Positions 1-61,106 of a DNA stretch of 61,106 nt are shown here, in pieces (the first letter of the stretch is position 1; each line of letters starts with the position of its first letter). The notes under the pieces are model-generated. The model ran no database searches and was not told the origin of the DNA. It saw nothing but the letters and a program-made list of their open reading frames with translations. The DNA is taken from assembly GCA_030041385.1 (NCBI GenBank), contig JASHNY010000078.1, forward strand, positions 1-61,106, given 5' to 3'. Source of the stretch: Alphaproteobacteria bacterium. Its GTDB lineage: Bacteria; Pseudomonadota; Alphaproteobacteria; ATCC43930; CGMCC-115725. Both the position numbers and the translations under genes were made by a program.

Positions 1-1017
1 TCGGTCGACAAGGTCGCGGCGGTGTTCGGGTGCTGGACCTCGGTGTCGCGCAAATCGGTGTTGCCGGTATTCGAGCAGCTCGACGGCATCCTGTTGTATC
101 CGGTCCAGTACGAAGGCCAGGAATGCAGCCGCAACGTGTTCTACACCGGCGCGGCGCCGAACCAGCAGGCGATCCCGGCGGTCGATTACCTGATGAACCA
201 GGTCAACGTGAAGCGCTGGGTGCTGGAAGGAACTGACTACGTCTACCCGCGCACCACCAACAAAATCCTCGAAGCATACCTCAAGGACGTGCTGAAGGTC
301 GCGCCCGAAGACATCATGATCAATTACACGCCGTTCGGCTTCTCCGACTGGCAGACCGAAGTGTCGAAGATCTAGGCTTTCGGTTCGGCCGGCAAGAAGA
401 CGGCGGTGGTGTCCACGATCAACGGCGATGCCAACGTTCCGTTCTACAAGGAGCTCGGCAACCAGGGCATCAAGGCGACCGACATTCCGGTGGTCGCGTT
501 CAGCGTCGGCGAGCAGGAATTGGCCGGCATCGACACCAAGCCGCTGATCGGCCATCTCGCGGCGTGGAACTATTTCCAGAGCGTCGATACCCCCGCCAAC
601 AAGGAAGTCGTGGCCGCGTTCAAGAAGTTCGCCAACAACGACAAACGCGTCTTCAACGACCCGATGGAGGCGCATTACATCGGCTTCAACATGTGGGTGA
701 AGGCCGTCGAAAAGGCCGGCACCACCGAGCACAACGCGGTCATCGACGCGATGGTCGGGGTGGCCCACCCCAACCTGTCCGGCGATTACGCGACGATGAT
801 GCCCAACCATCACCTGACCAAGCCGGTACTGATCGGCGAGGTGCAGGGCAACGGGATGTTCAACGTCGTGTGGCAGACGCCGGGCCTCGTCGTCGCCCAG
901 CCGTGGTCGCCCTATCTGCCCGAAAGCAAGCACCTGATCGGCGATTGGCTGCCGCCGATGTCGTGCGGCAATTACGACGTCGTCGCCGGCAAATGCCTCG
1001 GCAACCACAAGGCCTAG
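1..1017 (+). pseudogene. urtA: UrtA urea-binding protein, 5' partial, interrupted by in-frame TAG
   Basis: Periplasmic urea-binding component of the Urt ABC importer. The N-terminus and signal peptide lie left of the window. Frame 1 is open from base 1 ([20 protein letters not shown]), passes the UrtA-typical STINGDANVPFYKELGN segment and ends at TAG 1015-1017. An in-frame TAG at 373-375 splits it between EVSKI and AFGSAGKKT. UrtA relatives carry a sense residue there, usually Lys, one base away (AAG to TAG). The frame and the UrtA similarity continue on both sides without a gap, so this is a nonsense change and not a frameshift. TAG is an ordinary stop in neighbouring genes (urtE, infC, rplT, glmU), which argues against recoding. 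The gene is either inactive here or a base is wrong. It is the first gene of urtABCDE. Confidence 0.9.
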
Positions 1018-1157: not shown

Positions 1158-2795
1158 ATGACGCCGATGCAGTCGAAAATCGCCGCAGGGGGACGCTGCC
1201 TTCGATCGTGCGGCCTGGTGCTGGCGCTGCTGCTTGCGGCGGCGCTGGCGTGGCCGGCGCCGGCCCGCGCCGATCCGTTCGCCGCCATCGCTGCGACCAA
1301 TTTCGACGCGGTGGCAGACGGCGTGCGGGCGCTCGCGGTCTCCGGCAATCCGCGCGCCGCGGCGGTCATCGCCGCGTTGCGCGACGGCCGCCTCTACGCC
1401 TGGCGCTGGCCGCGGCCGGATGCGCCGCTGTTCATCCGCACCGATAGCGGCTTCGCCGACGCCCGCACCGGCGCCAAGGTGAGCGCACCGCCGCCGCTGA
1501 ATTTGCGCCGCGTCATCGTCAACGATTCGGTGCGCGCCGCGATCGAGACCGCGGAAGGTGCGCTCGACCTGTTTTCGCCGCAACCGGCGGCGCGGCGCCG
1601 CGCCGCCGAGGCGCTCTACCAGTCGGCCGCGCCCGGCGCGCTGCCGCTGATCGAGCGGGCCCTGGCGAAGGAGCGGGACGCCGGCGTCGCCCGCGTGTTG
1701 CGCGAGGCCAAGGCCGCGACCCTGCTGAAATCGGGCTCGGGCGACATCCCAGCGCGGCTTGCCGCGGTGGCCGAGCTGGCGGCGCGCGCCGATCTGTCGG
1801 CCCGCAGCCTGCTTGCCTCGCTGCAAGGACAGCCGCCCACGGTCGCCAGCGCCATCAGCGCGGCGATCGCCACGATCGATCGCCGCCTCGAGCTCTGGGG
1901 CCTGCTCGAAAATGTCTATTACGGCATCAGCCTCGGCGCGGTCCTGCTGCTGGCCGCTTCGGGGCTGGCGATCACCTTCGGGGTCATGGGCGTCATCAAT
2001 ATGGCGCATGGCGAGATGGTCATGGTTGGCGCCTACACGACCTTCGTCGTCCAGCAATTGATCGCCGCCTTTGCCCCGGCGCTGACCGAGCTGGGCCTGT
2101 TGTTCGCGATACCGGCGGCGTTTGTCGTCGCCGGCCTGCTCGGCATGGCGATCGAGCGGACATTGATCCGGTTTCTCTATGGCCGACCGCTCGAGACCCT
2201 GCTCGCCACCTGGGGATTGAGCCTCATCCTGCAGCAGGCGGTGCGCAGCATTTTCGGCCCGACCAACCAGAACGTGACCTCGCCCGATTGGATGAGCGGC
2301 GCGGTGAGCCTCGGCGGGCTGACGCTGACCGTGAACCGGCTGTGGATCATCGCCTTTGCGATACTGGTGCTCGCCGCATTGATGGCGGTGCTGCGCTGGG
2401 GCGGGCTCGGGCGCAACATCCGCGCGGTGATGCAGAACCGGCGCATGGCGGCGGCGATGGGCATCCGCACCCCGTGGATCGACGCGCTGACCTTCGGCCT
2501 CGGCTCCGGCATTGCCGGGATCGCCGGGGTGGCGCTGTCGCAGATCGACAATGTCAGCCCCAATCTCGGGCAGAACTACATCATCGACAGCTTCCTCGTC
2601 GTCGTGGTCGGCGGCGTCGGCAATCTGTGGGGGACGCTGTTCGGCGCGATGCTGCTCGGCGTCGTCGACAAGTTCGTCGAGCCATTCGAAGGGGCGGTAT
2701 TGGCCAAGATCATCGTGCTCGTGTTCCTGATCCTGTTCATCCAGCGCCGGCCGGGCGGCATGTTCCCGCTCAAGGGGCGGGCGGCGGAGGCATGA
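1158..2795 (+). CDS. urtB: Urea ABC transporter permease UrtB
   Basis: Inner-membrane permease of the urea importer, 545 aa, the normal size for UrtB with its long periplasmic N-terminal part. Residues 1-38 look like a signal peptide (hydrophobic LVLALLLAAALAWP then ARA-D). About residues 40-245 are Ala-rich and helical, resembling HEAT repeats. The C-terminal 300 residues are a LivH-type permease, with NMAHGEMVMVGAY near its start and VVVVGGVGNLWGT late. ATG 1158 is chosen because it directly precedes the signal peptide; upstream sequence is repeat. The stop overlaps the urtC start by 4 nt (ATGA), so the two are translationally coupled. Confidence 0.93.
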   Translation: MTPMQSKIAAGGRCLRSCGLVLALLLAAALAWPAPARADPFAAIAATNFDAVADGVRALAVSGNPRAAAVIAALRDGRLYAWRWPRPDAPLFIRTDSGFADARTGAKVSAPPPLNLRRVIVNDSVRAAIETAEGALDLFSPQPAARRRAAEALYQSAAPGALPLIERALAKERDAGVARVLREAKAATLLKSGSGDIPARLAAVAELAARADLSARSLLASLQGQPPTVASAISAAIATIDRRLELWGLLENVYYGISLGAVLLLAASGLAITFGVMGVINMAHGEMVMVGAYTTFVVQQLIAAFAPALTELGLLFAIPAAFVVAGLLGMAIERTLIRFLYGRPLETLLATWGLSLILQQAVRSIFGPTNQNVTSPDWMSGAVSLGGLTLTVNRLWIIAFAILVLAALMAVLRWGGLGRNIRAVMQNRRMAAAMGIRTPWIDALTFGLGSGIAGIAGVALSQIDNVSPNLGQNYIIDSFLVVVVGGVGNLWGTLFGAMLLGVVDKFVEPFEGAVLAKIIVLVFLILFIQRRPGGMFPLKGRAAEA

Positions 2796-3919
2796 TGCGC
2801 GCCGACCGATTGACGATCGCGACGCTTGCCTGCGTGCTCGGCGGGGCGGCGCTGCTCGCCGCGCTCAACCTGCTGACCCCGGCGGGGAGCGCGGTGCATG
2901 TGCCCAGCTTCGTGATCTCGCTGGTCGGCAAGTATCTGTGCTACGCGATCCTGGCTGTGGCGATCGACCTGGTATGGGGCTATGCCGGCATCCTGACGCT
3001 TGGCCACGCCGCGTTCTTCGCCCTCGGCGGCTACGCCATGGGCATGTACCTGATGCGCGAGATCGGCGCCCGCGGCGTCTATGCCAACCCGGTGCTGCCC
3101 GATTTCATGGTGTTCATCGGCTGGAACAAATTGCCCTGGTACTGGTACGGGTTCGACCATTTCTGGTTTGCGCTGGCGATGGTGGCGCTGGTGCCGGGCG
3201 TATTGGCCTGGGTGTTCGGCTGGTTCGCCTTCCGCTCGCGCGTTTCCGGCGTCTATCTGTCGATCATCACCCAGGCGCTGACCTATGCGCTGATGCTCGC
3301 CTTCTTTCGCAACGACATGGGCTTTGGCGGCAATAACGGGATGACCGATTTCAAGGACATCGCCGGCTTCCCGCTGAACCGCGAAACCACCTCGGTCGGG
3401 CTGATGCTGATTACCGCCGCGGTGCTCGCCACCGCCTTCGTGCTGGCGCGGGCGGCCATGCGCACGCGTTTCGGCAAGGTCTTGGTGGCGATCCGCGACG
3501 CCGAGGCGCGCACGCGCTTTCTCGGCTACCGCCCGGAAGCGTACAAATTGGCGGTGTGGGTGGCCTCCGCCGTCATCGCCGGGATCGGCGGTGCGCTTTA
3601 CGTGCCGCAGGTCGGCATCATCAACCCGTCGGAATTCGCCCCCGGCAACTCGATCGAGGCGGTGATCTGGGTCGCGGTCGGCGGCCGCGCCACATTGGCC
3701 GGCGCGATCCTCGGCGCGGTCCTGGTCAATCTGGGCAAGACCTGGTTTACGAGCGCGCTCCCCGAATTGTGGCTGTTCGCGATCGGCCTTCTGTTCATCC
3801 TGGTCACCGTGTTCCTGCCCCGCGGCATCATCGGCCTGGTCGCTGGCCGCGGCGCCGCCGCCCTGCCCGAGCACGAGCCGGCCGCGGCAAATTCCGCGGC
3901 GCGCGAGGCAACCGGATGA
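2792..3919 (+). CDS. urtC: Urea ABC transporter permease UrtC
   Basis: Second membrane permease of the urea importer, LivM type, 375 aa, pairing with UrtB to form the channel. It shows several hydrophobic segments, the LivM-type AGILTLGHAAFFALGGYAMG motif and the late GGRATLAGAILGA segment. The ATGATG start overlaps the urtB stop, and the stop overlaps the urtD start by 4 nt (ATGA). The tight overlaps place urtBCD on one transcript. Confidence 0.93.
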   Translation: MMRADRLTIATLACVLGGAALLAALNLLTPAGSAVHVPSFVISLVGKYLCYAILAVAIDLVWGYAGILTLGHAAFFALGGYAMGMYLMREIGARGVYANPVLPDFMVFIGWNKLPWYWYGFDHFWFALAMVALVPGVLAWVFGWFAFRSRVSGVYLSIITQALTYALMLAFFRNDMGFGGNNGMTDFKDIAGFPLNRETTSVGLMLITAAVLATAFVLARAAMRTRFGKVLVAIRDAEARTRFLGYRPEAYKLAVWVASAVIAGIGGALYVPQVGIINPSEFAPGNSIEAVIWVAVGGRATLAGAILGAVLVNLGKTWFTSALPELWLFAIGLLFILVTVFLPRGIIGLVAGRGAAALPEHEPAAANSAAREATG

Positions 3920-4659
3920 TCGACGGGACCATCCTCTATCTCGACGGCGTCACCGTTTCGTTCGACGGGTTCAAGGCGCTCAATTCGCTGTCCCTGGTAT
4001 TGGAACCGGGGGAATTGCGTGCGGTGATCGGCCCCAACGGCGCCGGCAAGACCACGATGATGGACGTGATTACCGGCAAGACGCGGCCCGATGCCGGCGA
4101 CGTGTTCTTTCGCGGCGACCACGATCTGACCCGGCTCGACGAGGCGGCGATCGCCAATCTCGGCATCGGCCGCAAGTTTCAGCGCCCGACCGTATTCGAA
4201 CATCTGAGCGTGCGCGAAAACCTCGAATTGTCGCTGGCCGGCAGCCGCAGCACCTGGCACGCGCTGTTTTCGCGCCAGCAGGCGGCGCAGCGCGAGGCGA
4301 TTGGCGCGACATTGCAGCGCATCGGCCTCGGCGAGCGCGCGGCGCAGCCGGCCGGCGCGCTGAGCCACGGCCAGAAGCAGTGGCTCGAGATCGGCATGCT
4401 GCTGATCCATGACCGCACCCTGCTGCTGCTCGACGAGCCGGTCGCCGGCATGACCGACCGCGAAACCGAAGAGACCGCGGCGCTGATCCTCGACCTCGCA
4501 CGCGATCGCTCGATCATCGTCGTCGAGCACGACATGGCTTTCGTGCGCAGCCTCGGCGCCCGGGTGACGGTGCTGCACGAGGGCGCGGTATTGGCCGAAG
4601 GCTCGATCGAGCACGTGCAGAACCACCCGCGCGTCATCGAAGTGTATCTCGGGCGCTGA
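3916..4659 (+). CDS. urtD: Urea ABC transporter ATP-binding protein UrtD
   Basis: ATPase subunit (LivG type) of the urea importer, 247 aa, cytoplasmic. Walker A is GPNGAGKT (residues 39-46). The ABC signature is the variant LSHGQKQWLEIGM, and Walker B is LLLLDEPVAGM followed by the switch His in VEHDM. UrtD proteins typically carry SHGQKQ in place of LSGGQ, which supports urea over amino acid specificity. It is coupled to urtC by a 4-nt overlap; a palindromic repeat separates it from urtE. Confidence 0.94.
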   Translation: MIDGTILYLDGVTVSFDGFKALNSLSLVLEPGELRAVIGPNGAGKTTMMDVITGKTRPDAGDVFFRGDHDLTRLDEAAIANLGIGRKFQRPTVFEHLSVRENLELSLAGSRSTWHALFSRQQAAQREAIGATLQRIGLGERAAQPAGALSHGQKQWLEIGMLLIHDRTLLLLDEPVAGMTDRETEETAALILDLARDRSIIVVEHDMAFVRSLGARVTVLHEGAVLAEGSIEHVQNHPRVIEVYLGR

Positions 4660-4663
4660 GCAT

Positions 4664-4751
4664 GTCATTGCGAGGAGGCGCAGCCGACGAAGCAATCTCG
4701 AGGGGACGAGATTCGGCCGGCCCGAGATTGCTTCGCTGCGGTCGCAATGAC
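4664..4751. repeat. Palindromic repeat between urtD and urtE
   Basis: The left arm begins GTCATTGCGAGGAGGCGCAG (4664) and runs to AGCAATCTCG at 4700. The right arm runs from CGAGATTGCTTCGCTGCG (4723) to CGCAATGAC (4751) and is its near-complete reverse complement. This is the widespread 'TCATTGCGAG ... GAAGCAATC' intergenic palindrome. It lies inside an otherwise tightly packed operon and could act as an mRNA-stabilising hairpin or partial terminator that sets urtE level. Confidence 0.8.
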
Positions 4752-4775: not shown

Positions 4776-5471
4776 ATGCTCGAAGTCGACGGGGTCGATC
4801 TCTATTACGGCGCGAGCCACGCGCTGCGCCGGGTCAGCCTTGCCGCGAAGACGGGCGAGGTCACCTGCGTGCTCGGCCGCAACGGCGTCGGCAAGACCAG
4901 CCTGCTGCGCGCGATCTTTGGCCTGCAGCCGATCCGCGCCGGCCAGATCCGCTGGAACGGGAAGGCCATCGCCGGCCTGCCGCCGCACGAGCGGGCGCGC
5001 GCCGGCCTGGCGCTGGTGCCGCAGGGCCGCGAGATTTTTCCGCGCCTGTCGGTGCGGGAGAACCTCGAAACCGGCTTCGCGATCCTGCCGCGCCGCCTGC
5101 GCCATATCCCGGACGAGATTTTCGAGCTGTTCCCGGTGCTGAAGGATATGCTCGGCCGGCGCGGCGGCGATCTGTCGGGCGGCCAGCAGCAGCAATTGGC
5201 AATTGCCCGCGCGCTGGTGATGCGGCCGGGCCTGTTGATCCTCGACGAGCCGACCGAAGGCATCCAGCCCTCGATCATCAAGGATATCGGCCGCGTCATC
5301 GCCCATCTCGCGGCGCGCGGCGACATGGCGATCCTGCTGGTCGAGCAGTATTTCGACTTTGCCCGCGACCTCGCCGCCGCCTATGTCGTCCTCGAACGCG
5401 GCGAAGTGGTATTGTCCGGCCGCGCCGGCGAGATGGACGAGACCGCGGTGCGCAGCTATCTGACCGTGTAG
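4776..5471 (+). CDS. urtE: Urea ABC transporter ATP-binding protein UrtE
   Basis: Second ATPase (LivF type) of the urea importer, 231 aa, the usual size. Walker A is GRNGVGKT (34-41), Q-loop in VPQGREIFPRL, signature LSGGQQQQLAIARAL, Walker B LLILDEPTEGIQPS, and switch His replaced by Gln in LLVEQYFDFA, as is usual in LivF/UrtE. The ATG follows the palindromic repeat by 24 nt. It is convergent with the response regulator, with 13 nt between the stops, and is the last urt gene. No urease genes are in the window. Confidence 0.94.
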   Translation: MLEVDGVDLYYGASHALRRVSLAAKTGEVTCVLGRNGVGKTSLLRAIFGLQPIRAGQIRWNGKAIAGLPPHERARAGLALVPQGREIFPRLSVRENLETGFAILPRRLRHIPDEIFELFPVLKDMLGRRGGDLSGGQQQQLAIARALVMRPGLLILDEPTEGIQPSIIKDIGRVIAHLAARGDMAILLVEQYFDFARDLAAAYVVLERGEVVLSGRAGEMDETAVRSYLTV

Positions 5472-8177: not shown

Positions 8178-9596
8178 CTAATGCCAGGCAGCGTACTCGG
8201 ACACGATCGGACGGGCGGCGACCGACGATGCGCCGAAGGCTTCGAGCGCGCGCAGGAAGGAGGTCCACCAGGCGTGGACATCGTGCACCTCCAACTGCGC
8301 CATCATCGCGGCATGGCGCTCGCGGCGCTCTTCGAGCGGCATCGCCAATGCCCGGTCGAGCGCGTCGGCAACCTGGTCGACATCGAACGGATTGACGATC
8401 AGTGCCGTCTCCAATTCGCGTGCCGCCCCGGCAAAGCGCGACAGGATCAATACGCCGGGATCCTCGGTGTCCTGGCTGGCGACAAATTCCTTGGCAACGA
8501 GGTTCATGCCGTCGCGCAGCGGCGTGACCATGCCGATGCGGCTGGCGCGGTAAAAGCCGAACAGGGTGTCCTGGCGAAAGCGGCGGTTCAGATAGCGCAC
8601 CGGGATCATGTCGGGCTCGCCGAAACGGCCGTTGATGCGCCCGGCCCAGGAATCGAGCTCGGCGCGGATCTGCTGGTATTCCGGCACATCCTCGCGGCTC
8701 GGCGAGGCGATCTGCAGCATCACCATCGCGCGGCGATGCTGCGGCCGGGTTTCGAGCAGCCGGTCGATCGCGGCCAAGCGTCGGACCAGCCCCTTGGTGT
8801 AGTCGAGCCGATCGACGCCGATGATCAGCTTGCGCCCGGACAGGCTGTTGCGCAGCCGTGCGGCGACGCCGGTGCCGGCAGTGCGCACGGCATGGGCAGC
8901 GACCGCCCGCGTATCGACGCTGATCGGAAAATAGGCGGCCTGCACCTGTTGGCCGAAGGCATGGGCAGCCCCGTCGGCGCTGATCAGCCCATCGGCCTCG
9001 CGCACGACATAATCGGCAAAGGCCTGCAGGTCGCGATCGGTCTGGAAGCCGACCAGGTCGTAGGAAAACAGCGCCCGCACCAGGGCCTCGTGCACCGGCA
9101 GCGTGGTCAGCACGTCGGGCCCCGGAAACGGGATGTGCAGGAAGAAGCCGAGCCGGTTGCCCACCCCGAGCCGGCGCAGGGCGGCGCCGAGCGGGATCAG
9201 ATGGTAGTCGTGGATCCACACCGTATCGTCGGGGGAAAGCACCGCCGCCAGGCGTTCGGCAAACAGGTCGTTGACCCGGCGATAGGCGGCCCAGGCGTCG
9301 CGGTCGTATTCGGCCAGGTTGACCCGGTAGTGAAAGAGCGGCCACAGCACGCGGTTGGAAAAGCCCAGATAATAGCCGTCGAAATCCTCGCGCCGGACAT
9401 CGAGCAGCAGCCGGGTCAGCGCCCCTTCGACCTCGGTGCGCACCGGCCCGGGATCGCCTTCGGTGACCGCCCCGCTCCACCCGAACCACATCGCCTCGCG
9501 CCGGTGCAGCGCCGCACGGATCGCCGTCGCCAGCCCACCTTCGTCGGCTCGCAGCGACGAGGCGACCCGGTTCGATACGATCACCAAACGCTCCAT
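8178..9596 (-). CDS. otsA: Trehalose-6-phosphate synthase OtsA
   Basis: GT20 glycosyltransferase joining UDP-glucose and glucose 6-phosphate, 472 aa, close to the normal size. Seen: N-terminal [30 protein letters not shown] with the catalytic-site Lys, and [11 protein letters not shown] near the nucleotide site. I start at 9596 ([11 protein letters not shown]) because GAGGGG lies 6 nt upstream; the in-frame ATG at 9602 sits on that site. First gene of the trehalose operon. The 220 nt upstream is shared with the divergent macrodomain gene. Confidence 0.95.
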
Positions 9597-9816
9597 GTTC
9601 ATCCCCTCGACCCGTCCCCTTGCCAAACGTGCTGCAGGCCGGCTTTAGCGCCGATTTTTTTGCTTCGCTGCGGGCCCCGCACGGCCCGGTAACCCAAGCG
9701 GTTGAACGCCGGCCTTCGGGTCCGGGTTCCCGCCGGCCGGCGCGATGCTGGGCGTGCCGGCCGCTCGGCGCTATGATCGCGCACCCGCCGGCACCAACTC
9801 CAGGCATAGGCCCGGC

Positions 9817-15608: not shown

Positions 15609-16763
15609 ATGGCCAGCGTGTTCCCGAACCTGACCCATCGCGAGCTGACGCTCGCCGACAAGTTGCGCGGGATCCGCTGGGACCTGATCGCGCTGATCAC
15701 GGCGATCGCCTGCATTGGCTTTGCCCTCCTGTATTCCGCCGCCAACGGCAATCTGTATCCGTGGTCCGAGCGGCAGATGGTGCGGTTTGCGCTCGCCTTC
15801 GTGCCGATGGTCGCCGTCGCACTGATCGACATCCGCTACTGGTTCCGCGCCGCATACTGGATCTACGGCATATCGCTGGCGCTGATCGTTGCGGTCGATC
15901 TGCGCGGGATCGTCGGCATGGGCGCGCAGCGCTGGATCAATCTCGGGGTGATCGAGCTGCAGCCGTCGGAGATCATGAAGATCGCGCTGGTCCTGGCGCT
16001 GGCCCGCTATTTCCATTCGCGCTCCGGCGACGAAATCCGCCGCTTTTCGACGATCTTCGCGCCGGGCCTGCTGATCGCCGTGCCGGTCGGGCTGGTTTTG
16101 AAACAGCCCGATCTCGGCACCGCGGTGATGCTGGTGGCGAACGGCGCCGCGCTGATGTTTCTCGCCGGGATTCGCCTGTGGATTTTTGCCGCCGGCGCGG
16201 CCGCCGCCGCCGCCGTCGCGCCGCTCGGCTGGTCGATGCTGCGCGGCTACCAGAAGGCCCGGCTCCACACGTTTCTCGACCCCAACACCGACCCGCTCGG
16301 TGCCGGCTATCACATTCTGCAATCCAAGATCGCGCTCGGCTCGGGTGGCCTGTTCGGCAAGGGCTTCCTGATGGGCACCCAGACCCATCTGAGCTTCTTG
16401 CCGGAAAAGCAGACCGACTTCATCTTCACGATCCTCGCCGAGGAATTCGGCCTGGTCGGCGGGCTGACCCTGCTGGCGCTGTACATGGTGGTGACCGGCT
16501 ACGGATTTGCCATCGCGTTGCGCAGCCGCAGTCATTTCGGGCGGTTGCTTGGGCTCGGTCTCGCAACCAACTTCTTTCTCTATGCGTTCATAAATACAGC
16601 GATGGTAATCGGGCTGCTGCCGGTGGTCGGAGTGCCGCTGCCGCTGATTTCCTATGGCGGAACCGCGATGGTTACGGTCATGCTGGGATTTGGGCTGCTG
16701 ATGAACGTCAGCATTCACCGCGATGTACGGATCAGCCGCCTCGGCGAAAGCCAGGTCGGCTGA
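15609..16763 (+). CDS. rodA: Peptidoglycan glycosyltransferase RodA (MrdB)
   Basis: SEDS-family membrane glycosyltransferase polymerising lipid II with PBP2, 384 aa, about ten transmembrane segments. Family features: GAQRWINLGVIELQPSEIMK, the long extracellular loop with DPNTDPLGAGYHILQSKIAL and GTQTHLSFLPEKQTDFIFTI, and the C-terminal PLPLISYGGTAMVTVMLGFG. The catalytic Asp of the family lies in the EKQTDF/ loop region. Last recognised gene of the shape operon. Confidence 0.96.
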   Translation: MASVFPNLTHRELTLADKLRGIRWDLIALITAIACIGFALLYSAANGNLYPWSERQMVRFALAFVPMVAVALIDIRYWFRAAYWIYGISLALIVAVDLRGIVGMGAQRWINLGVIELQPSEIMKIALVLALARYFHSRSGDEIRRFSTIFAPGLLIAVPVGLVLKQPDLGTAVMLVANGAALMFLAGIRLWIFAAGAAAAAAVAPLGWSMLRGYQKARLHTFLDPNTDPLGAGYHILQSKIALGSGGLFGKGFLMGTQTHLSFLPEKQTDFIFTILAEEFGLVGGLTLLALYMVVTGYGFAIALRSRSHFGRLLGLGLATNFFLYAFINTAMVIGLLPVVGVPLPLISYGGTAMVTVMLGFGLLMNVSIHRDVRISRLGESQVG

Positions 16764-16773
16764 GGAGGAGAAT

Positions 16774-17382
16774 ATGGCCGAGCGGAATGCGCCGGAAGCC
16801 GGGCGGCACCTGCACGTGACGGTCCTGCTCGTCGCGTCGCGGCGCGCGCTCGACAACGCGCTCAACGAACTGGGTTTTGCCGAAGACGACGACCGCGTCG
16901 TCGAACATGACGGGCGGCTCGCCTTTCTGACCTGCACGCACGAGGAGGATTGCGACGACCTGTTCGCGCTCGTCGCCGAATTGTCGGCGCGCGGCGAAAG
17001 CTGGGAATTGCAGTCGCGCATCGATACCGAGGCCGGGCGCGCGATCTATCAATCGCTGTCGCGCTACCGCCCGGTCGAGGCGATCGACGCCCCGGTGGAC
17101 GAGGAGACCGAGCCCGAAAGCTCCGAGGCGCCCGCCCACGACGTCGAGACCAGCGAAGGGTTGCAGGCGCTGAAGCGGATTCTGCGCCGGGTCGAGCCGG
17201 CCGACGCCTTCGCGACGATCCGCGCCGGGCGCGACGGGCGGGCGACGGCGCGCATCCTGCGGCGCGGCTCGCGGCGCCTCTTGGCGGCGGCGAGCGCATC
17301 CGACGAGGCGACGTTGCGCGGCGTGCTGCGCGAGATACTGCCGAATGTGATGCTCGACGTAGCGATGAAGCCGCCGAGCTGA
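16774..17382 (+). CDS. Hypothetical acidic protein downstream of rodA
   Basis: A 202-aa protein I do not recognise. ATG 16774 has GAGGAG 6 nt upstream and lies 10 nt after rodA, so it probably belongs to the operon. The first 100 residues are rich in Asp/Glu (FAEDDDRVVEHDGRLAF, THEEDCDDLFALVAEL), residues 105-125 are an acidic linker, and the C-terminal 70 residues are basic and helical (LQALKRILRRVEPADAFATI). No membrane segment or signal peptide. Codon use matches its neighbours, so it looks like a real native gene. Confidence 0.7.
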   Translation: MAERNAPEAGRHLHVTVLLVASRRALDNALNELGFAEDDDRVVEHDGRLAFLTCTHEEDCDDLFALVAELSARGESWELQSRIDTEAGRAIYQSLSRYRPVEAIDAPVDEETEPESSEAPAHDVETSEGLQALKRILRRVEPADAFATIRAGRDGRATARILRRGSRRLLAAASASDEATLRGVLREILPNVMLDVAMKPPS

Positions 17383-17493
17383 AATTCGCCCTATGCGCGC
17401 AGGCCGGACGCTGATCGGGGCTTGCCCGCAGACCGGCTTGGCGCGAAAATTGCGCCGGCCGAAGAGGGGCAGGCCGAGCCGGGGAGAAAGATC

Positions 17494-18723
17494 ATGCTGT
17501 CACGCCGCGCCGTCATCGTCCAGCTGCCCGTCGCGGCGCTGGCCGGAGGTCGTATCGCCCGCGCCTTCGCTGCCGACAAAAGCGTCACGATCGGGATCAG
17601 CCTGCCGCTGACCGGCGCCGACGCCGACGACGCCACGCTGATCAAGGACGGCGCTATGCTGGGGGTCGACGACGCCAAGGACGGCGTCGGCGGCTACAAG
17701 ATCAATGTGACGGTGCTCGACGACGGCACCGCGACGGCCGGCCAGTACGACCCGGCGCAGGCGGCGACGAACGCCCGCAAGATGGTCTCGGACCAGAGCG
17801 TCGTCGCCGCGATCGGCCCGCAGATGAGCGGCTCGGGCAAGGCGATGTCGCCGATCCTCAGCGAAGGCGATTTGGCGACGATCACGCCGAGTTCGACCAA
17901 CCCCGACATCACCAACCCGGCGATGGCCGGCCAGTTCCGGCCGGCGGGCAAGGCGATCTATTTCCGCACGGTGACGACCGACGCCTACCAGGGCCCGAAC
18001 ATGGCGAACTATTTCGCCAAGGTGCTGAAGGTAAAGAAGGTCTATGTTCTCGACGACAGCGGCGCCTATGGCGTCGGCATGGCCAACGCCTTTGCGGCCC
18101 AGGCCAAGGTCGCCGGCATCACGGTTCTGGGCCACGACCAGCTCGATCCGAAAGAGGCCGACTACACAACCGCGCTGACCAAGATCAAGGCGCTCAACCC
18201 CGATGCGATGTACTACGGCGGCGTGGCGCTCGCCGGGGTCAAGCTGGTCAAGCAGTCCTATGACATCCTGCCCAAGATCATCAAGGGCGGCGGCGACGGC
18301 ATGTACAGCTCTTCCGTGCTGAAGGGCGCCGGCTTCCCCGCGGTCGAGGGCTGGTATGCGACGATCGCCGCCCCCTACGTGTTCGATCATCCCGACGTGA
18401 TCGCCTGGGGCAAGCGGTTCCAGGCGAAATACGGGCGCGCGCCATCGGGCTATGCGGTCACCGCCTATGACGGGGTGCTGGTCATTTTCGACGCGATCAA
18501 GCGGGTCGCAGCCTCGGGCAAGCCGGTCACCCGCGATGCCGTGCGCGATGCGATCCAGACCGCCCACGTCAAGACCTTGCAGGGCGAGGTCAGCTTCGAC
18601 CAGAACGGCGACATCCAGAACCGGATCGTCAGCGTGTTCCGCTGCGAAAAGAACGACAAGTATCCGATCGACGATACCTTGCACCAATTCAAATACCTTG
18701 GGGTCGCGCCGCAGACGGTTTGA
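17494..18723 (+). CDS. Branched-chain amino acid type ABC transporter substrate-binding protein
   Basis: Periplasmic type I binding protein (Peripla_BP_6/LivK fold), 409 aa. Signal sequence at 1-28 (SRRAVIVQLPVAALAGG ... FAAD); the twin Arg gives it some Tat character. The mature part starts VTIGISLPLTGADADD, with AAIGPQMSGSGKAMSPI and later FRTVTTDAYQGPNMANY, typical of the ligand cleft. Start ATG 17494 follows GGGGAGAAAG. Substrate cannot be read from sequence: branched-chain amino acids are the family default, but amides or other amino acids are possible. Heads a complete importer cassette. Confidence 0.9.
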   Translation: MLSRRAVIVQLPVAALAGGRIARAFAADKSVTIGISLPLTGADADDATLIKDGAMLGVDDAKDGVGGYKINVTVLDDGTATAGQYDPAQAATNARKMVSDQSVVAAIGPQMSGSGKAMSPILSEGDLATITPSSTNPDITNPAMAGQFRPAGKAIYFRTVTTDAYQGPNMANYFAKVLKVKKVYVLDDSGAYGVGMANAFAAQAKVAGITVLGHDQLDPKEADYTTALTKIKALNPDAMYYGGVALAGVKLVKQSYDILPKIIKGGGDGMYSSSVLKGAGFPAVEGWYATIAAPYVFDHPDVIAWGKRFQAKYGRAPSGYAVTAYDGVLVIFDAIKRVAASGKPVTRDAVRDAIQTAHVKTLQGEVSFDQNGDIQNRIVSVFRCEKNDKYPIDDTLHQFKYLGVAPQTV

Positions 18724-18752
18724 CGGCGGTTATCCGATCGCCGGTCGCACAC

Positions 18753-19682
18753 ATGACTGACCACGCGGTTCTGCTCCAACAGATCATCAACGGCCTCAGC
18801 CTCGGGGCCATGTATGCGTTGCTGGCGATCGGCTTCACGCTGGTCTACGGCATTTTGGAGCTGATCAACTTCGCCCATTTCAACGTGTTCATGGTCGGCT
18901 CGTTTGTCGGCATGTGGGCGTTGGAATTGCTTGGCCTGTCTGGGCAAAGCCGGATTCTGACCGGCCTGCCCTTGTTCGGCGCGCTCGCCTTCGCCTTCAT
19001 CGTCGCGATGCTGGCGTGCGGCGTGCTCGGTGTCGCCATCGAGCGCTTCGCCTTGCGGCCATTGCGAACCGTGTCCGGCACCACCGGCATGATCACGACG
19101 ATCGGGGTGTCGTACATCCTGTTCAACGTGATCCTGTTATGGGCGGGCGCCGACGCCAAGAACTACCCGAACCCGATGCCGGCGATGCATTGGCCCCTCG
19201 GCGGCGCGGTCATCGAGTTGCGCGAATTGCTGATCTGGGGCATCGCGCTGGTATTGATGGTGGGGCTGCACCTGTTCGTCAGCCGTACCCGCCTCGGCAA
19301 GGCGATGCGCGCGACCGCCCAGGACGCCGAGGCGGCGCGGATGATGGGGGTCGATGTCGACCGCGTCGTCGTTACCGCGTTCTTCCTCGGCTCGGCCTTG
19401 GCCGGCGCAGCAGCGCTCATCTTCGGGCTCTACTACAACTACACCAGCTTCCTGATCGGCTATACCGCCGGGCTCAGGGCCTTCACCGCAGCGGTATTGG
19501 GCGGCATCGGCAGCGTTACCGGCGCGATGGTCGGCGGCATCATCATCGGCCTGGTCGAGACGCTGGGCGGGCAATTGATCGCGGTCCGCTGGACCGACGT
19601 GATCATCTTCTCGATCCTGGTGCTGGTGCTGGTGTTCGCGCCCGCCGGCCTGATGGGCCGGGCGGCGCCCACCAAATCCTGA
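18753..19682 (+). CDS. Branched-chain amino acid ABC transporter permease (LivH type)
   Basis: Inner-membrane permease, 309 aa, eight or so hydrophobic segments. LivH signatures: IINGLSLGAMYALLAIGFTL at the N-terminus, LVYGILELINFAHF, and AAVLGGIGSVTGAMVGGIII near the end. ATG 18753 gives the family's usual N-terminus; a TTG at 18720 overlapping the previous stop is possible but adds residues not seen in the family. Works with the fused permease-ATPase downstream. Confidence 0.92.
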   Translation: MTDHAVLLQQIINGLSLGAMYALLAIGFTLVYGILELINFAHFNVFMVGSFVGMWALELLGLSGQSRILTGLPLFGALAFAFIVAMLACGVLGVAIERFALRPLRTVSGTTGMITTIGVSYILFNVILLWAGADAKNYPNPMPAMHWPLGGAVIELRELLIWGIALVLMVGLHLFVSRTRLGKAMRATAQDAEAARMMGVDVDRVVVTAFFLGSALAGAAALIFGLYYNYTSFLIGYTAGLRAFTAAVLGGIGSVTGAMVGGIIIGLVETLGGQLIAVRWTDVIIFSILVLVLVFAPAGLMGRAAPTKS

Positions 19683-19700
19683 GATGGCCCCGGCCGTGAC

Positions 19701-21737
19701 ATGACCGAGCGCGAACGCGGGATGCTCGGCCCATCCTACGCGTGGCTGCGGCAGGCCTCGCCGATCCAGCGGCTGGCGCCGTACGTCAATCCGCGCGTGG
19801 TGATCGCCTGCGTACTGATCGCCGCGCTCGCCTTTCCGCCGATCGTGCGCAACGACGGCGACATCGACGCGGCGGCCAACGCGCTTTCGTTTGCGGCGCT
19901 GGCGCTGGGCCTCAACATCGTCGTCGGGTTCGCCGGGCTGCTGGATCTCGGCTATGCCGCATTTTTCGCGATCGGCGCCTACACCTATGGCGCCCTCGCC
20001 TCGTACCAGATCCAGCCGGCGTGGAGCGGGTTTTGGGAGCCGTTCCGCTGGCTCGACCTGGTCAGCCGCCTGCACCAGGCCGGCGGCGACACCGTGCATT
20101 TCCAGGTGTCGTTCTGGCTGATGCTGCCGATTTCGGCGGCGGTCGCCGCCTTTTTCGGTGTGTTGTTCGGCGCCCCGACCCTGCGCCTCAAGGGCGACTA
20201 CCTTGCCATCGTCACGCTGGGCTTCGGCGAGATCGTGCCGATCGTCGCCCGCAACACACCGGCGATCACCAATGGTGCCGCCGGGCTCAACGGCGTCGCC
20301 GCGCCGCAGCTGTTCGGCTGGAGCTTCGGCATCGATGCAACCCCCTATTACTATGTGGGGGTCGCACTGGTCGCCTTCCTGATCCTGACCAGCACGCGGC
20401 TCAAATTTTCGCGGGTCGGGCGGGCTTGGATGGCGATCCGCGAGGACGAGATCGCCGCCGCGGCGATGGGGGTCAACCGCGTCCGCTTCAAGCTGCTCGC
20501 CTTTGCCATCGGCGCCGCCTTCGCCGGCGCCACCGGCACGCTCTACGTCGCCAAATTGCAAACCGCGACGCCCGAGATGTTCATGTTCCCGGTGTCGGTG
20601 ATGATCCTGGTCATGATCGTCTTCGGCGGCATCGGCAGCGTGTGGGGCGTCGTCGTCGGCGCGGTGATCCTGCAGATCCTGCAATCGTGGTTTCTCGAAG
20701 ACCTGTCGCAATGGCTGCATGCGCTGGGCCGGCTGATCGATGTGGCCTGGCTGCAGCGGGTCGAGCTGGCACCGTCGATCGAACTGATCTTCGGCACCAT
20801 CCTGGTGTTCATGATGCTGTATCGGCGACAGGGGCTGATCCCGGCGGTGCGGGCGATGCCGGCCCTGACCCTCGCCGAACAGACCGCCCATGTCACCCGC
20901 ATCGGCACCGGCGAGATCGCCGCGCCGGCGGGTCTCGGCGACGGCGAGCGCCGCGAAGACCCGAAGCTGCTCGACATCGCCGGTCTGACCGTGCGCTTTG
21001 GCGGGCTCGTCGCGCTGCGCTCGGTGGCGTTGACCGTGCCGGCGCACGGCGTGGTCGCCGTGATCGGCCCCAACGGCTCGGGCAAATCGACGCTGTTCAA
21101 CGCCATGACCGGGCTGGTGCCGGCCGATGCGGGCACGATCCGCTTTGCCGGCGCCGACATTACCCGGCTGCCGCCGCATCGGGTGCTCGAACGCGGCATC
21201 GCCCGCACCTTTCAGAATTTGCGTTTGTTCCCGAGCCTCAGCGTGCTCGAAAACGTAATGATCGGCATGCATGCGCGGCTCCAGACCGGGCCGGTCGGCG
21301 CGCTGCTGCGCCTGCCGGCGACACGGCGCGAAGAGGAGGAGGCGCGCGAGCGGGCGCGCGAAATCCTGCGCCTGTTCGGCAATCGCCTATTGCCGCGCCT
21401 CGACCACGTCGTCTCCAGCCTCAGCTACGCCAATCGCCGCCGGGTCGAGATCGCCCGCGCCCTCGCCGCGCGGCCGCGGCTGCTGTTGCTCGACGAGCCA
21501 ACCGCCGGGATGAACCCGGCCGAAACCCTCGAACTGGCCGAGCAGATCAAGAGCTTCAACCGGATCGGGCTGACCATCGTCCTGATCGAACACAAGCTCG
21601 ACGTGGTCGTAAACCTGGCCGAGCGGGTCGTCGTGCTCGACCACGGCGAGAAGATCGCCGAGGGCACGCCCGACGCGGTGCGGCGGGACGACGAGGTGGT
21701 CCGCGCCTATCTCGGCCGGAGTGCGGCGGTTGCCTGA
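19701..21737 (+). CDS. Fused LivM-type permease and LivG-type ATPase
   Basis: A 678-aa fusion of two transporter subunits normally encoded separately. Residues 1 to about 390 are a LivM permease (VGFAGLLDLGYAAFFAIGAY, YLAIVTLGFGEIVPIVARN, VFGGIGSVWGVVVGAVIL). After a linker, about 420-678 form a LivG ATPase with GPNGSGKST near residue 456, signature LSYANRRRVEIARAL (LSYAN in place of LSGGQ) and LLLLDEPTAGMNPAE. The frame is continuous, with no sign of a joining error. Such fusions occur in some proteobacterial cassettes. The gene overlaps livF by 17 nt. Confidence 0.9.
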   Translation: MTERERGMLGPSYAWLRQASPIQRLAPYVNPRVVIACVLIAALAFPPIVRNDGDIDAAANALSFAALALGLNIVVGFAGLLDLGYAAFFAIGAYTYGALASYQIQPAWSGFWEPFRWLDLVSRLHQAGGDTVHFQVSFWLMLPISAAVAAFFGVLFGAPTLRLKGDYLAIVTLGFGEIVPIVARNTPAITNGAAGLNGVAAPQLFGWSFGIDATPYYYVGVALVAFLILTSTRLKFSRVGRAWMAIREDEIAAAAMGVNRVRFKLLAFAIGAAFAGATGTLYVAKLQTATPEMFMFPVSVMILVMIVFGGIGSVWGVVVGAVILQILQSWFLEDLSQWLHALGRLIDVAWLQRVELAPSIELIFGTILVFMMLYRRQGLIPAVRAMPALTLAEQTAHVTRIGTGEIAAPAGLGDGERREDPKLLDIAGLTVRFGGLVALRSVALTVPAHGVVAVIGPNGSGKSTLFNAMTGLVPADAGTIRFAGADITRLPPHRVLERGIARTFQNLRLFPSLSVLENVMIGMHARLQTGPVGALLRLPATRREEEEARERAREILRLFGNRLLPRLDHVVSSLSYANRRRVEIARALAARPRLLLLDEPTAGMNPAETLELAEQIKSFNRIGLTIVLIEHKLDVVVNLAERVVVLDHGEKIAEGTPDAVRRDDEVVRAYLGRSAAVA

Positions 21738-38457: not shown

Positions 38458-38511
38458 CTGTGGGTATGCGGGCAGTCCCCAGACGAGCGCATCAACGAGA
38501 GGAGAGCTTAC

Positions 38512-39048
38512 ATACCCAGGCCACCGATAAACTTCACCCCCGCCCGCGACGGCCCGCGCGTCAACGAGGAGATCGGCGTAATCCGCGTCCGCCTCGTCGA
38601 CGAGAACGGCCAGATGGTGGGGATTGTCGGGCGCAACGAGGCGATCGCGATGGCTGCCGATGCCGGCCTCGACCTCGTGGAGATCGCGCCCAACGCCGAC
38701 CCTCCCGTATGCAAAATCCTCGATTTCGGCAAGTATAAATACGAAGCACAGAAGAAGAAGAACGAGGCGCGCAAAAAGCAAAAGGTCATCGAGGTTAAGG
38801 AAATCAAATTGCGCCCGAGCATCGACGACCATGATTATGACGTCAAGATGCGCAGCATGGCCAAGTTCATCGAAGAGGGTGACAAGGTCAAGGTGACGAT
38901 GCGATTTCGCGGGCGCGAACTGGCGCATCAGGAACTCGGCATGAACGTGCTGATCCGGGTGCGCGACGACCTCGATGCCGTCGCCAAGGTCGAGCAGATG
39001 CCGCGCATGGAGGGGCGGCAGATGACGATGGTGATCTCGCCGAAATAG
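38512..39048 (+). CDS. infC: Translation initiation factor IF-3, apparent AUA start
   Basis: Prevents premature 30S-50S joining and proofreads start codons, 178 aa from the start proposed here. The conserved N-terminal domain ([20 protein letters not shown]) lies upstream of the first in-frame ATG (38614), so that ATG cannot be the start. Between the thrS stop (in this same frame, 38455-38457) and that region there is no ATG, GTG or TTG. AUA at 38512 has an AGGAG sequence at 38500-38504, 7 nt upstream, the ideal spacing; CTG 38458 and ATC 38491 have no such site. Non-AUG starts (AUU in E. coli) are the known basis of infC autoregulation. The C-terminal domain runs from [19 protein letters not shown]. 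Confidence 0.9.
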
Positions 39049-59655: not shown

Positions 59656-59663
59656 CCGGGCAT

Positions 59664-61106
<1,443 letters not shown>

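Follow-up and report, generated by a model that had tools for sequence, protein, structure and literature searches.

An in-frame amber codon in a urtA gene at a contig end of an alphaproteobacterial assembly

The window analyzed here, i.e., the whole stretch of 61,106 nucleotides, is the entire contig C43 (positions 1 to 61106) of an assembly (G000) that comprises 264 contigs and 4.39 Mb, and that is estimated to be 98.46% complete and 2.57% contaminated. Judged by its nearest named relatives, the source is an uncultured alphaproteobacterium. The contig starts within a urtA gene, with the 5′ end of the gene lying off the contig. Frame 1 of the forward strand reads as 124 sense codons (1 to 372), an amber codon, TAG, at 373 to 375, i.e., 373 bases from the contig end, and a further 213 sense codons (376 to 1014) that are closed by the gene's own TAG terminator at 1015 to 1017. 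When each part was compared with the NCBIfam model for UrtA (TIGR03407), the upstream part matched profile positions 67 to 185 (E = 7.8e-57) and the downstream part matched positions 191 to 361 of 361 (E = 2.6e-64), in that order, and the Pfam family Peripla_BP_5 gave the same picture, with matches at positions 66 to 184 and 188 to 361 of 363. The curated TIGR03407 cut-off of 492.75 bits is not reached as one protein (the parts score 193 and 217 bits), because of the stop in the frame and because the contig does not reach the 5′ end. With the stop masked, a tblastn search aligned the entire stretch over 338 residues with a second urtA copy present in the same assembly. Since both parts fit one UrtA model in order, we regard them as one gene stopped in frame. 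This bears out the initial annotation, which had placed an amber codon in frame inside urtA with the frame intact on both sides; a frameshift, rather than a substitution, is ruled out by the shared frame, and the UrtA matches on both sides of the TAG, together with the sense codon found in relatives, rule out that the TAG falls by chance in a non-coding frame.

To place the amber codon among homologs, we used tblastn against the 105 loci given, all of which matched, and the 103 of these with at least 300 residues were aligned with the window urtA, a set that is partly non-independent in that a single genome listed under two identifiers may have supplied some of the loci. A sense codon occupies this column in each of the 103 aligned relatives, encoding lysine in 100, glutamine in two and alanine in one (AAG in 94, AAA in six, CAG in two and GCC in one), as expected from the earlier claim that TAG stands in place of a sense codon. 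The six nearest relatives all carry AAG, TAG is one base change away from the lysine codon of most relatives, and T is the first base of this codon in none of the 103. Among the 105 aligned stretches, only one (L091) contains a stop, three residues before its end (index 334 of 337), and none is split at the amber position. The stop at 373 to 375 is thus, on these alignments, private to the window urtA among the sequences examined.

The remainder of the urt operon follows on the same strand. Using start codons that we chose for urtB and urtC, we find intact urtB (1158 to 2795; TIGR03409, 413 bits against a cut-off of 250), urtC (2795 to 3919; TIGR03408, 439 bits against 296), urtD (3916 to 4659; TIGR03411, 371 bits against 304 when scanned from 3919), the ATG of which at 3916 overlaps the urtC stop, and urtE (4776 to 5471; TIGR03410, 344 bits against 286), which ends in TAG. 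All four pass the curated cut-offs, in agreement with the view that the other urt genes are undamaged. The description of these genes as tightly coupled applies to urtB-urtC and urtC-urtD, where adjacent genes share a few bases, but not to urtA-urtB and urtD-urtE, which with the chosen starts are separated by gaps of approximately 140 and 116 bases. Both gaps hold inverted repeats, and the two elements are different: one, a member of a dispersed family, occupies 1041 to 1159 on the forward strand, with arms at 1041 to 1058 and 1142 to 1159, and the other is located at 4664 to 4751. Both families recur at many places in their own genome, and part of the 1041 to 1159 element has matches in seven of the eight genus members searched.

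Nine adjacent pairs of open reading frames in the same frame were picked in the window, and urtA is the sole pair shown to be one split gene. In six of the other eight, the members match different families; the pair at 18471 to 19682 and 19683 to 21737 represents two permeases, each with a nearly full-length match to one family; and for the pair at 16705 to 17382 and 17383 to 18723, the first member matched no family. The frame at 19683 to 21737 encodes a branched-chain amino acid permease domain and, after it, an ABC ATPase domain, i.e., a LivM-LivG-like fusion, and lies within a second binding-protein/permease/ATPase cluster at approximately 17.4 to 22.5 kb. A TPP riboswitch (59657 to 59781, 65 bits) is present near the window end. 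In the assembly as a whole, the anticodons Pro ggg (C142 and C223, both genes close to contig ends), Thr ggt (C99 and C128) and Ala ggc (C94 and C237) are each carried by tRNA genes on two contigs, possibly reflecting strain redundancy in the bin.

The second urtA in this assembly is uninterrupted and is located at the end of contig C151 (27661 to 29010). It is 90% identical to the window urtA over 338 residues, and approximately 85% identical in DNA, and its protein matches the solved urea-binding proteins 7s6e, 7s6f and 8hic. Five bases past its stop begins an ATG-led stretch of 30 codons that runs to the contig end and that, from our reading of the last 90 bases by eye, looks like the start of a different urtB. 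Because of the DNA identity of only about 85% and the other sequence downstream, we treat this copy as a different locus rather than as an overlap with C43. No second close urtB is present in the assembly, where the next match after that of the window is 32% identical, and the remainder of the C151 operon was not found in it. A tandem duplication of urtA, in which C151 would lie immediately upstream of C43, is unsupported, since C151 runs on into the apparent start of a different urtB and its last 122 bases have only short, chance-like matches to other contigs (best other E = 0.01). The two contigs have a tetranucleotide correlation of 0.996, so composition does not separate them, and members of the same genus would look alike too; the C151 urtA may therefore represent another locus in the same cell, or its contig may come from a co-existing relative whose sequence is part of the bin. 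In seven other members of the genus, the downstream UrtA part has one match in five and two matches in two; in one of the latter (G003), both matches belong to a single operon present on two contigs that overlap, the common stretch differing at one place as read by eye. Four of the seven hold only a UrtA type that is 62 to 65% identical.

The initial annotation considered that loss of the binding protein alone would be odd. This oddity is weakened by the intact second urtA, provided that C151 comes from the same cell, as well as by the lack of a convincing urease alpha subunit in an assembly that has a urea transporter operon. For the urease alpha model TIGR01792, whose cut-off of 680 bits is exceeded in 3 of 14 control genomes, the best match in the assembly scored 24.8 bits. 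The Pfam family PF00449 gave two weak matches, one of 24 bits over 46 of its 121 positions and one of 22.8 bits over 43; both are listed as reaching the cut-off of 23 bits, the weaker only with its neighbours (23.1). For the match located in the window, the best NCBIfam match of the protein is an amidohydrolase family, below the cut-off of that family, and we read both as probable other amidohydrolases. Urea may thus be consumed through a different route, or else the urt operon may be of little use.

Analysis of substitutions demonstrated that a three-point dN/dS on the branch leading to the window urtA is 0.06 to 0.19 (15 reference pairs), and therefore that selection held over most of the history of this gene. 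The stop must then have arisen very recently, or be an error in the consensus. In a comparison with six close relatives, two synonymous and seven non-synonymous private changes fall upstream to about the stop, and six synonymous and two non-synonymous ones downstream of it; the non-synonymous excess upstream rests on small numbers. In an alignment of 104 UrtA sequences, a further local departure was found at positions 286 to 297 of the forward strand (codons 96 to 99), approximately 75 bases upstream of the amber codon, where a codon is inserted and a glycine otherwise invariant in the alignment is lost. Under the test used, the window urtA is alone among the 104 in this insertion, and the glycine that it lacks is present in all 103 others. 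The insertion and the glycine loss may be harmless, because the solved homologue 8tg1 likewise has one extra residue at the insertion site and because 5 of the other 103 sequences also show two departures at otherwise invariant columns.

We consider it probable that a recent nonsense change struck one urtA allele, and that the stop is a real but ordinary private allele. If so, translation would end at codon 125 of the visible frame, yielding a product that retains the visible N-terminal part but lacks what the last 213 codons encode, and this truncated UrtA should fail as a urea-binding protein. The change would be tolerated through the other, uninterrupted urtA on C151, through little need for urea import, or both. 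This reading supposes that the TAG base is real and that C151 is in the same cell as C43. A real allele gains mild support from the inserted codon with its glycine loss and from the lack of a convincing urease alpha subunit, whereas the absence of decay beyond the two local lesions, the low dN/dS, the six synonymous against two non-synonymous private changes downstream and the lack of a frameshift speak against one. As a member of the UrtABCDE ABC transporter, the gene is recognizable by halves that match TIGR03407 in order and by urtBCDE downstream, above their cut-offs, and it differs in being interrupted by TAG, in missing its 5′ end and in its one inserted codon. An ordinary nonsense-mutation pseudogene, or polymorphic null allele, has one stop in frame while the gene is conserved in other respects. 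The window urtA likewise has a premature stop within a conserved frame; it departs from this class in showing hardly any further decay, and is thus either very young or not real. The case is ordinary, and no new mechanism is needed.

Of the three options that had been offered for the amber codon, recent inactivation, an assembly or sequencing error, and suppression, the first two stand. An error would consist of a single wrong consensus base, or of the base of a minor strain taken as consensus, near the contig end, and we regard it as possible, if somewhat doubtful. Consistent with it are the fragmentation and estimated contamination of the assembly, and the start of the contig inside urtA, where assembly may be confused by the presence of two similar urtA sequences; the start of C43 shares identical stretches of approximately 26 bases with C151, as read by eye. 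The coding frame is also strongly constrained on both sides of the TAG, and only one base has to be wrong for the lysine codon of most relatives to be read as TAG. Against an error, the T occurs in neither the second copy nor the 103 relatives, such that a simple chimera does not yield it, and a chimera with the C151 copy as the source of the T is ruled out. In addition, no broken gene is demonstrated among the other eight same-frame pairs of the window.

Suppression, in which an amber-reading tRNA or a reassigned TAG would allow full-length UrtA, is very unlikely, because release factor 1 is present (prfA on C75, 507 bits against a cut-off of 423), no CUA anticodon occurs among the tRNAs found, and TAG ends other genes. 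The search for an amber suppressor tRNA that the initial annotation had proposed returned none among the 42 tRNA genes found in the assembly, a set that is incomplete in having no Tyr or Ile tRNA, such that a suppressor could sit in a missing piece. TAG ends 14 of the 45 open reading frames picked in the window (the amber itself counted) and 7 of the 36 picked by another tool, shares that are rough since the first picker missed urtB to urtD and the second dropped both urtA parts, urtC and urtD. TAG terminators backed by homology are found in the IF-3 gene (38458 to 39048), in a family 20 glycosyltransferase gene (8178 to 9644, otsA-like), in urtE and in urtA itself. Recoding would be expected to leave TAG rare or absent as a terminator and to be accompanied by loss of release factor 1, and neither is seen here; on these grounds and on the tRNA set, we reject recoding of TAG. 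The likeness to known amber suppression or TAG recoding is confined to an in-frame TAG within a constrained frame, and the sense codon of the aligned relatives argues against it. A conditional amber, at which a suppressor tRNA missing from the assembly, or read-through programmed for this single codon, would set the level of UrtA, and hence urea uptake, is more improbable still. That the two parts are now separate working genes, with the second restarting at the GTG at 406, can be given next to no credence, since the restarted part would presumably lack a signal peptide, both parts are halves of one binding-protein model, and the aligned relatives show no such split.

In the search listings for literature on urtA and on stop codons in assemblies, we found nothing on this subject. 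Our preferred reading, a recent nonsense allele, has little significance beyond annotation. It does counsel caution with a broken gene at a contig end, for which a second copy should be looked for in the same assembly before lost function is claimed, and read support is advisable before such a gene is called a pseudogene. If real, the nonsense allele would mark a lineage that is losing urea import through the urt operon of this window.
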